A DNA stretch of 64,000 nucleotides, from positions 434,001 to 498,000 of the forward strand of contig NC_012993.1 of the NCBI RefSeq assembly GCF_000026365.1. Reading direction: 5' to 3'. Below the pieces are notes generated by a model, which was given only the letters and a program-made list of their open reading frames with translations, was not told the DNA's origin and did not search any database. Source of the stretch: Zygosaccharomyces rouxii. Taxonomy: Eukaryota; Ascomycota; Saccharomycetes; Saccharomycetales; Saccharomycetaceae. This document shows positions 22,793 to 35,257 of the stretch, in pieces. Position 1 is the first letter of the stretch. The number at the start of each line of letters is the position of its first letter. A program made the translations under genes and the position numbers.

Positions 22793-23831
22793 TTAACATT
22801 CGCAAATTATCCAAGTTGATGCGTATCCACCGTAAATTCTTAATGTAGCGTTCGAATTTACATTGAAAACTTTGTTCAATGGACTCACAACATTTGAATA
22901 ATCATTTATAGAACCTTGACCATTCGTACGACCACAATTACCGTGTTCTCCCCATCCCCAACAGAACACTTGGTTTTTGTTATGAATTAAGATACCGTGC
23001 TCACTACCAGTAGTGAATGAATCTATTTCCAATGGGTACGGTACTGCGTATAATTGACCATGGTTACCGTTACCGTAAGAGTGAATCGACCTGTTGTAGT
23101 GAATGTGTAGGGATGACCACATACATGAGACCTGAACTGATTTACCTTGCCATTCTTGTAAGCGGAACTCTCGTGGTAAAGATCCTATAGCATGTACAAT
23201 GTAACCATGAATGTCTATTATGAGCATGAAATCTTTTCCCATGGCTACATAATCGATCAGGACTTCTTCGTTTGCATATATCACATATGGACGATCCACT
23301 ATCCTACACTTAGGCTCTTTGATTTGGCATTTGGTATTCGAACCCCATCCAAGCACTCTCGATCCTTTACCACAGGGTTCAACCACTACACAGTTCTGGA
23401 AAGATGAAAAAAGCTTCGATCCTTTTTCGACTTCCATAATCTTCGCAAAATGTGAGGATCTCTTAGTTTCTCCAATACCTAATTCACCCTTTAGCCCACA
23501 CCCTCTAGCCAATAACTGGTTACTGGCATCAATCGCAACTGTAAATTCCCATCCACACGTCACATCTTCGTAAGTACCTTCTATGGGCTGCCACCCAACC
23601 CAATGATCCCCTTCTCTTTCTTTTCTCAAACCTAACTGACCTTGGCTGTTATCTCCACACCCATATAGCCTACCATCCTCAAGCAACAACAAGCTGTGAT
23701 TACCACCACAATTAATTTTCTTCAAATGACATGAATTCACCCATGACAACTCTGGTTCAATCAAATCTTCACAGTGAGAGAGGCCTAAGCTGATAGTTAC
23801 CGTTTGAACCAAAACTGTAAACCTTATTCAT
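22793..23831 (-). CDS. ATS1: Ats1/Kti13, RCC1-repeat protein, expressed through a +1 frameshift at CTT-AGG-C
   Basis: Kti13 pairs with Kti11/Dph3 and supports Elongator-dependent modification of tRNA wobble uridines and diphthamide synthesis on eEF2. The large frame contains RCC1-type repeats (INCGGNHSLLLLEDGRLYGCGDN, VLGWGSNTKCQIKEPK, FCWGWGEHGNCG) but has no ATG before about its 125th codon. An ATG at 23831 in a different frame encodes MNKVYSFGSNGNYQL, which matches the conserved Ats1 N-terminus (S. cerevisiae VYAFGSNGQRQLGLG). That frame meets TGA at 23771-23769. The heptamer CTT-AGG-C at 23789-23783 lets a ribosome shift +1, skipping A23786, and continue GLSHCEDLIEPEL in the large frame. 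The joined product is 345 residues (S. cerevisiae 333). Coordinates run from the ATG to the stop of the shifted frame. A sequencing error is the main alternative. Confidence 0.88.
23783..23789 (-). other. Programmed +1 ribosomal frameshift heptamer CTT-AGG-C in ATS1
   Basis: Codons 15-16 of the ATS1 zero frame are CTT AGG, followed by C. This is identical to the Ty1 and ABP140 frameshift site, where peptidyl-tRNA-Leu(UAG) slips from CUU to UUA while the AGG codon waits for its scarce tRNA. After the slip the next codon is GGC, which gives the conserved Gly-Leu of the first RCC1 repeat. The zero frame stops four codons after AGG. Confidence 0.85.
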
Positions 23832-24095
23832 CGTATTAGTGTGAGTATCTATTGAATTCATCGAGCCTTTTTTCTTAATTCCTTTTTTTTTTTTTCGTGT
23901 ACCTATAACACGTAAGTCTGCTTGAAAGTGTAGGTAGGTCTTGTATTAAAATTTTTCAATTATCTTTTGAAGCTTCTAAGTGTACATCAAAGATAAAGGC
24001 ATTTGAGCCAAGACAACCTGCAGATACAAGAGCATATCTAAGTTCGTTTGCAAAAAGTTGGATACATTAATTCTGTATTTCCGTTACCCACCAGT

Positions 24096-34020: not shown

Positions 34021-35082
34021 TTAAGAACGTTTTTTCTTTATAATATCTATACTCCATCTAGCAGCACCTACTGTATTGCTAGTCATGGTGATGATTGAAA
34101 ATAAAGGTAAAAATTCTAAAATACCTGCAGCCATACCAAAACTGTAAAATAATCCTAAATGTTCATATTCGTAATTTTTGGCCGCCATTGGATCTGTACC
34201 ACTGAGAACGAAATATCTGCCCATGTAAGAAGAAGCTCTCCTTGAACTGATCAATTGGTTTACAATTGGCGGTCCAATTAATGGTATAAGAGATATTCCT
34301 GCTAATATAACCGCTACCAATATTTTTCTCATGATATTTAAAATCCATAGAGGGACTACAAAGCTCCAAAATTCCGCCATAGACCAATGAATTCTATTAT
34401 CAGAATCTGCAGAGACGGTTATAAATTTCGCCCTTGCTAAAAATTCACTTTGACCATGTAAGTAGAGTGTTGTATCAAAAATTTGGTTACTGATATAGGT
34501 TAATATAATTTTTCGACAAACAAGTGCGGTAAGAGCATTTGTTTGTAAAAGCCATTGAATGTGTACAAGTATAAATCCTAGAGGACCTAAAGTCATAACA
34601 GCCCACGCCAAGAGGGCGGGCAAAACAACGACGTAATAGATAGCACCAATTGTCACGAAAGTAGCTGTATAACTTAGAGCAAACACACTAAGTTGGCGCC
34701 AATAGATTTTGTGCGTTAGAACTTCAATGAGACCCTAGTGAAGTTAGCATTCTGCAGTAAAGAAAAAAACGAATGGTATTAGAAAAATGTCATAACGTAC
34801 CAATACGGGATATATGAATGCAAATCCCAGGAAGAAATCGTTTAGGAAATTTTTTTGGATCAGAGTTCGTCTCAATCTGATTGTAGGTACGAGTTCTGAG
34901 AAAAGTTTGTTGAGAGAAGTATTTGACGGTTCCTTTGATTTGGAATTTTCTTTTTTCTGTGAGTTTACCACCAAAGGGAATTCCTGTTGTGAGCCTTGAA
35001 TTATATTAGATATTGGTTTTTCTAGAGCATTATTGTCGCTAGAATTTTTCCAATGGCTTACGAGAACCGTACTATTTGTCAT
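34021..35082 (-). CDS. RRT8/LDS-family membrane protein with one intron (exons 35082-34801 and 34734-34021)
   Basis: The family (S. cerevisiae RRT8, LDS1, LDS2) consists of outer-spore-wall and lipid-droplet-linked proteins of the EI24-like membrane group. Two frames must be spliced. Exon 1 (94 codons from the ATG at 35082) ends FLGFAFIYPVL, at a GTACGT donor (34800-34795). The 66-nt intron has branch box TGCTAAC (34749-34743) and acceptor TAG ending at 34735. Exon 2 opens GLIEVLTHKIYWRQLSVFAL. The junction recreates the family segment seen unspliced in the two paralogs next door (FLYPHKGVQMFLTHK and VIYPFLGVLELVRHG). The predicted product is 331 residues with about four to six hydrophobic helices, including GPLGFILVHIQWLL and ISLIPLIGPPIVNQLISSRR. 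S. cerevisiae LDS2 is, from memory, also intron-containing, so orthology to LDS2 is possible; RRT8 is the alternative. Confidence 0.82.
34735..34800 (-). other. Spliceosomal intron, 66 nt
   Basis: The donor is GTACGT at 34800-34795, the branch sequence TGCTAAC at 34749-34743 (branch A at 34744), and the acceptor CACTAG ends at 34735, only nine bases from the branch adenine. A pyrimidine-rich stretch lies between donor and branch. Removal joins two frames of the same protein family at a codon boundary. Confidence 0.82.
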
Positions 35083-35257
35083 GAACTCTATAGATGGGTT
35101 TGGAAACACACAATTCTGTACTCAGGTCAGACCTTATCTAATTTGTTTTCATTTTTTTTAAAATAGGTGTGTTCTTTTTTTTTTTTTTTCTCCGCGACAC
35201 ACTGACACAAGGTGACATTGTGGTAGCAGAAAAAATAAATTATGTGTTTCGAGAACT

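Follow-up and report, generated by a model that had tools for sequence, protein, structure and literature searches.

The heptamer CUU-AGG-C is a site of +1 ribosomal frameshifting in budding yeast, and the same seven bases serve Ty1 and ABP140 (PMC12661321, in the part of the text available). In S. cerevisiae reporters, as given in the same part, the shift rate is about 40% for the bare heptamer, about 60% in the context of ABP140 and about 20% in that of Ty1, and the contexts of YFS1 and LLP1 leave the basal rate unchanged. The slippery tRNA in the Ty1 model is tRNA-Leu(UAG) (PMC4627075, available sections). Chromosomal yeast genes of the +1 kind are few, the accessible texts naming OAZ1, ABP140, EST3, YFS1 and LLP1, with BIR1 added in Z. 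parabailii. For YFS1 (YPL034W), the published layout has a Cys codon, UGY, before the shift site and UNAC after it, and 52 of 81 homologues need the shift, which indicates that this frameshift is ancient (PMC12719033, available part). Shifting on S. cerevisiae ABP140 is stimulated by a stem-loop upstream, and LLP1 (YJR112W-A), which is also named for Z. parabailii, carries the same heptamer behind a short ORF1 (PMC12661321, same part).

Here, we analyzed the Zygosaccharomyces rouxii genome (7 contigs, 9,764,635 bases) and, within it, a window of 64,000 nucleotides (C4:434001-498000) that contains a gene split between two frames on the minus strand. The start codon ATG lies at 23829..23831 (window positions, minus strand, here and below) and pairs with Met1 of S. 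cerevisiae Ats1. From this ATG, the zero-frame ORF1 (23769..23831) reads MNKVYSFGSNGNYQL up to the slip site, where CUU is codon 15, and in full translates as MNKVYSFGSNGNYQLRPLSL before a TGA at 23771-23769. The heptamer CTT-AGG-C occupies 23783..23789, where ORF1 and ORF2 overlap; its CTT is a zero-frame codon, and the zero frame and the +1 frame meet here. The base skipped in a +1 shift would be the A at 23786. ORF2 (22793..23785), in the +1 frame from GGC to its stop, encodes the rest of Ats1/Kti13 with its RCC1 repeats and stays open for 330 codons after the slip site; from stop to stop this body ORF covers 22793-23827, or 344 codons. The letters and positions that the initial annotation gave for the ATG, the heptamer and the TGA were all as stated. 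Its observation that ORF2 has no early ATG also stands, but the first ATG, which it put at about codon 125, is found by count after 130 codons, 116 codons past GGC. The letters contain an additional in-frame ATG at 23859..23861, 10 codons upstream of ATG 23831 and 24 codons before the heptamer, the use of which would lengthen ORF1.

Reading CTTA as a single Leu step yields a protein of 345 amino acids. In a sequence search of the PDB, the best 3 of 34 matches were chains of S. cerevisiae ATS1 (4x33_B, 4d4q_A and 4d4o_A; E about 1e-71), with propellers of RPGR and UVR8 next, at E values of about 1e-28 or weaker. The alignment to S. cerevisiae Ats1 starts at residue 1 and spans residues 1-342. 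In the two best alignments, which we inspected, the junction is free of gaps: MNKVYSFGSNGNYQL followed by GLSHCED is placed against MSCVYAFGSNGQRQL followed by GLGHDED, and by eye 10 of 15 residues before the junction and 6 of 11 after it are identical. ORF2, which has no start of its own, completes the conserved protein in the +1 frame, and the earlier prediction that a +1 shift at CTT-AGG-C would continue with Gly-Leu in exact register is confirmed. Pfam finds RCC1 repeats in the 345-residue protein. The neighboring genes encode PMT, nucleoside transporter, LRR plus nuclease, and SNF2 domains, in agreement with the gene order PMT2-FUN26-CCR4-ATS1-FUN30 that we take to hold on S. cerevisiae chromosome I. 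A full-length best match, the RCC1 repeats and the gene neighborhood, the latter judged against this assumed order, identify the gene as an ATS1/KTI13 orthologue; on these sequence grounds, the split gene is the ATS1/KTI13 of Z. rouxii.

Since the two frames join exactly at a heptamer on which ribosomes are known to skip, Kti13 probably depends on the skip, and we hold it to be quite likely that the full-length protein is produced by +1 ribosomal frameshifting at CUU-AGG-C. Ribosomes would initiate at AUG 23831, arrive at CUU, decoded by tRNA-Leu(UAG), and pause at AGG, awaiting the scarce tRNA-Arg(CCU). The peptidyl Leu-tRNA would then slip from CUU to UUA, at a rate that we can only infer, and GGC would be decoded in the +1 frame, giving NYQL-GLSH and then the remaining propeller. 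Non-slipping ribosomes would end at UGA with a 20-residue peptide, and this early stop might expose the ATS1 mRNA to nonsense-mediated decay. With the bare heptamer at about 40%, Kti13 output would be moderately lowered rather than abolished. Thus, the original interpretation as a +1 frameshift is borne out in its two frames, in the heptamer, which is exact, and in a junction that matches to the residue; the frameshifting itself is the part that we infer.

ATS1/KTI13 is probably an additional CUU-AGG-C +1 gene, belonging to a known kind but new to it as a gene. The split gene resembles YFS1 in that CUU-AGG-C follows very soon after the start, ORF1 is short and the functional part lies in the +1 frame. 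It differs in distribution: the YFS1 shift recurs among homologues, whereas the ATS1 split is known from one genome. S. cerevisiae Ats1, unlike the YFS1 homologues that need the shift, aligns as one protein, and we presume the S. cerevisiae gene to be in one frame. ABP140/TRM140 has the same heptamer, is likewise a tRNA-modification gene and has the same layout in Z. rouxii; its ORF1 is long, whereas that of ATS1 is short, and in place of the stem-loop described for S. cerevisiae ABP140 the ATS1 site has no stable fold. LLP1 shares the heptamer and the short ORF1, but is a small protein unrelated to Kti13. Ty1 gag-pol has the identical heptamer and presumably the same tRNA slippage, but is a retrotransposon that makes two products in a set ratio, whereas ATS1 would make one functional product. 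The initial annotation knew of no described frameshift in ATS1, and this agrees with our searches of open-licence papers for frameshifting in ATS1/KTI13/YAL020C and for Z. rouxii ATS1, in which we came across none. By word search, neither ATS1 nor KTI13 is named in Fenton 2025 or Ivanov 2025, nor in the first 300,000 of the 475,107 characters of the Atkins 2016 review.

Two established CUU-AGG-C genes are carried by the same genome in the expected layout, from which their use of the heptamer may be deduced. Searched with a tolerance of up to 3 mismatches, the pattern for the Abp140 actin-binding peptide matches the genome once, without mismatch, at C6:576854. A heptamer lies in frame 687 bases downstream (C6:577541), preceded by 229 codons of ABP140. 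There the zero frame ends with ADNSL-RRD and a stop, and the +1 frame begins with GVTKEI and runs into the methyltransferase domain. At a second locus (L073), the zero frame reads MTKQRMQC-L-RRN and a stop, and the +1 frame reads GVTKKGQRCRIQ and contains a T5orf172 domain (Pfam). We identify L073 as the YFS1 orthologue because it matches the description of UGY before and UNAC after the site. Together with suitable tRNA genes, the layouts of ABP140 and YFS1 argue well, by analogy, for the step from heptamer to +1 frameshift at ATS1. The sequence that follows the slip site is nearly shared by ABP140 (L099:788-802) and YFS1 (L073, reverse strand), reading CTTAGGCGTGACTAA and CTTAGGCGTAACTAA, and both genes read L-GVTK in the +1 frame; ATS1 is without this shared sequence.

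Gene counts place the host tRNA set in line with what CUU-AGG-C slippage requires: tRNA-Leu(UAG) without a GAG or AAG competitor, and little tRNA-Arg(CCU). For tRNA-Leu(UAG), five of six pattern matches were confirmed by ARAGORN in intron mode, and the sixth resembles tRNA-Asp by eye. A strict pattern for a Leu-GAG gene gave no match, and a looser one gave 15, none with GAG at the anticodon by eye. A Leu-AAG pattern had 27 matches, each of which, by eye, falls in the D-loop of an Ile or Ser tRNA. As no Leu-GAG or Leu-AAG gene was found with these three patterns, although an atypical gene might escape them, CUU is probably read by tRNA-Leu(UAG) only. A pattern for tRNA-Arg(CCU) had three matches, two of which ARAGORN confirmed as genes and one of which does not look like a tRNA by eye. 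S. cerevisiae has a single copy (PMC12661321, available part), and we count this difference against the frameshift reading. In the ORFs of the window, AGG is used at 10.4 and GGC at 5.4 per 1000 codons. AGG is thus uncommon here yet not very rare, a further point against our preferred explanation. A tRNA-Ile-like gene on the minus strand at C3:734469-734512 has CTGATAA where other copies have CTAATAA, which by eye suggests that its anticodon is GAU instead of AAU; a nuclear yeast tRNA with GAU would be unusual.

To assess chance, we simulated single-base insertions of every base at every position of the 28 other long ORFs of the window, with ATS1 excluded. An in-frame CTT-AGG-C was created at the insertion in 5 of 198,096 cases; under an alternative definition, in which nearby heptamers are counted and 60 bases are dropped from each gene end, in 3 of 185,328. 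The initial argument that a random indel would rarely make this heptamer is therefore upheld by simulation. Over the whole genome, CTTAGGC occurs 346 times on both strands, and 95 of these sites were covered: 91 in fetched loci, which were taken in list order from contigs C1 to C5 and not chosen by content, 3 more in the window, and ABP140. Reading-frame gain was largest at ATS1 among the 94 CTTAGGC sites examined. A site counted as two-frame when an ATG preceded it in the zero frame by 5 codons or more, the +1 frame gained at least 100 codons and the +1 ORF had no earlier ATG. Three of the 94 sites have this arrangement (ATS1, YFS1 and L066); among random positions drawn from these loci, 15 of 10,920 have it. 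An open frame of 713 codons runs on the strand opposite L066, and because of this we set the locus aside as a chance case. Another locus, L007, was discarded, as its +1 frame belongs to a long ORF that is open before the heptamer is reached, and the large gain has no other source. The heptamer appears to be tolerated in frame elsewhere, as 6 of the 91 fetched sites have CTT-AGG-C in frame within an open frame of at least 120 codons, these frames being putative genes, and we count this against the frameshift reading. By phase, the 91 loci divide into 6 in frame, 15 in the other possible sense phase, 30 with no long frame and 40 antisense, and the depletion of in-frame heptamers (6 vs 15) is not significant (P = 0.085). 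CTTAGGC is found 346 times and its reversed string 820 times, both genome-wide and on both strands, a comparison made with no codon-aware control; genome-wide avoidance of the heptamer is only suggestive.

If one base in CTTA were surplus through an assembly or sequencing error, a C, T or A would look alike, since TTA, CTA and CTT all encode Leu. The locus is known from a single genome sequence, TT in CTTA is a two-base homopolymer, and no other long ORF of the window has its first ATG so late, except for one at the window edge and a 124-codon frame of questionable coding. However, such an error would need to have hit precisely the heptamer at which +1 shifting is possible, as 5 of the simulated 198,096 insertions do. 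General frame breakage is not seen in the window; for the other split gene there, a short intron is the best reading. We regard an error as improbable. A dead gene, in which a recent null mutation in the strain leaves no useful full-length protein, would account for a frame that is formally broken. Against this, ORF2 stays free of further stops for 330 codons, conservation covers the 15 N-terminal residues, and the heptamer at the break gives about 40% shifting in S. cerevisiae (PMC12661321, available part), so that loss of the gene is very improbable. A hidden intron that joins the frames, or an independent start for ORF2, is the kind of explanation that has a precedent in LLP1, once mis-annotated as intron-containing in S. 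cerevisiae (PMC12661321, same part), and in the split gene at 34021-35121 of this window. Splicing at ATS1 was rejected because conserved codons adjoin the junction on both sides and leave no room for an intron. An internal start was rejected because the first ATG of ORF2 drops 131 residues, including the first RCC1 repeat match. We consider either of these extremely improbable.

A more serious question concerns age and purpose. A young, tolerated one-base insertion may have made the heptamer, with about 40% slippage yielding enough Kti13, and the site would then be recent and non-regulatory. This overlaps with frameshifting at CUU-AGG-C as we prefer it, being the same on slippage and different on age and purpose, and we judge it close to an even call, falling slightly on the doubtful side. 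The Z. parabailii genome paper, in its available part, names OAZ1, ABP140, EST3, BIR1 and YJR112W-A as +1 genes and not ATS1, from which the site may be recent. Provided that the authors of that paper went through all genes, the split dates from after the separation of the Z. rouxii and Z. bailii lineages or is confined to this strain. In the part of its text available, a pseudogene survey covering Z. rouxii lists as shift genes EST3, OAZ1 and ABP140. Kti13 is also an accessory protein, without which about 15% of Elongator activity is left in S. cerevisiae (kti13 deletion; PMC10468694, available part). No stimulatory RNA structure was found near the ATS1 site, a point for the young insertion and against our preferred explanation: three stretches were folded, and none beats its shuffles (z 0.50, 1.29 and 1.55). 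A scan of two contig collections (genome contigs and viral contigs) found no relatives of the genome. Should the site prove young, it would show a shift-dependent gene right after its origin, with a cost and fate that are traceable.

The KTI13 product supports wobble-uridine modification and diphthamide synthesis, both of which guard translation accuracy. As loss of Elongator is reported to make the reading of AGG need the rare tRNA-Arg(CCU), a simple feedback could act through the A-site AGG of the KTI13 heptamer. Tukenmez et al. state tRNA-Arg(CCU) to be essential in an elp3 mutant, the reason given being that modified Arg(UCU) tRNA is needed for good AGG reading (PMC4627075, available sections). 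Since Kti13 supports Elongator, a loop is plausible: Elongator modification of the wobble uridine would let the abundant tRNA-Arg(UCU) help to read AGG, and low Kti13 would lead to slower AGG reading, more CUU-AGG-C slippage and restored Kti13. We think it rather unlikely that such a sensor loop operates. The published elp3 data on this point are mixed, and the sites in the table differ from CUU-AGG-C. Shifting at CUU-AAA-C rises tenfold, there is no significant change for CUU-AGA-C (ratio 0.80) or AAA-AGG-C (0.74), and CUU-AGG-C is not among the rows shown (PMC4627075, Table 3, as available). The loops of antizyme and bacterial RF2 would be comparable if a shortage of Kti13 slows AGG and thereby gives more shifting and more Kti13; they are autoregulatory +1 systems, whereas a loop at ATS1 is hypothetical. 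If true, it would, together with ABP140/TRM140, make +1 frameshifting a recurrent control point of tRNA-modification genes in budding yeasts.

The second two-frame gene of the window (34021-35121, minus strand) gave no Pfam or PDB match for its product, which we take to resemble the LDS1/RRT8 family. Its two frames are joined in phase by a putative intron of 66 nt, with GTACGT at 34800, GCTAAC near 34748 and an AG that ends at 34735.
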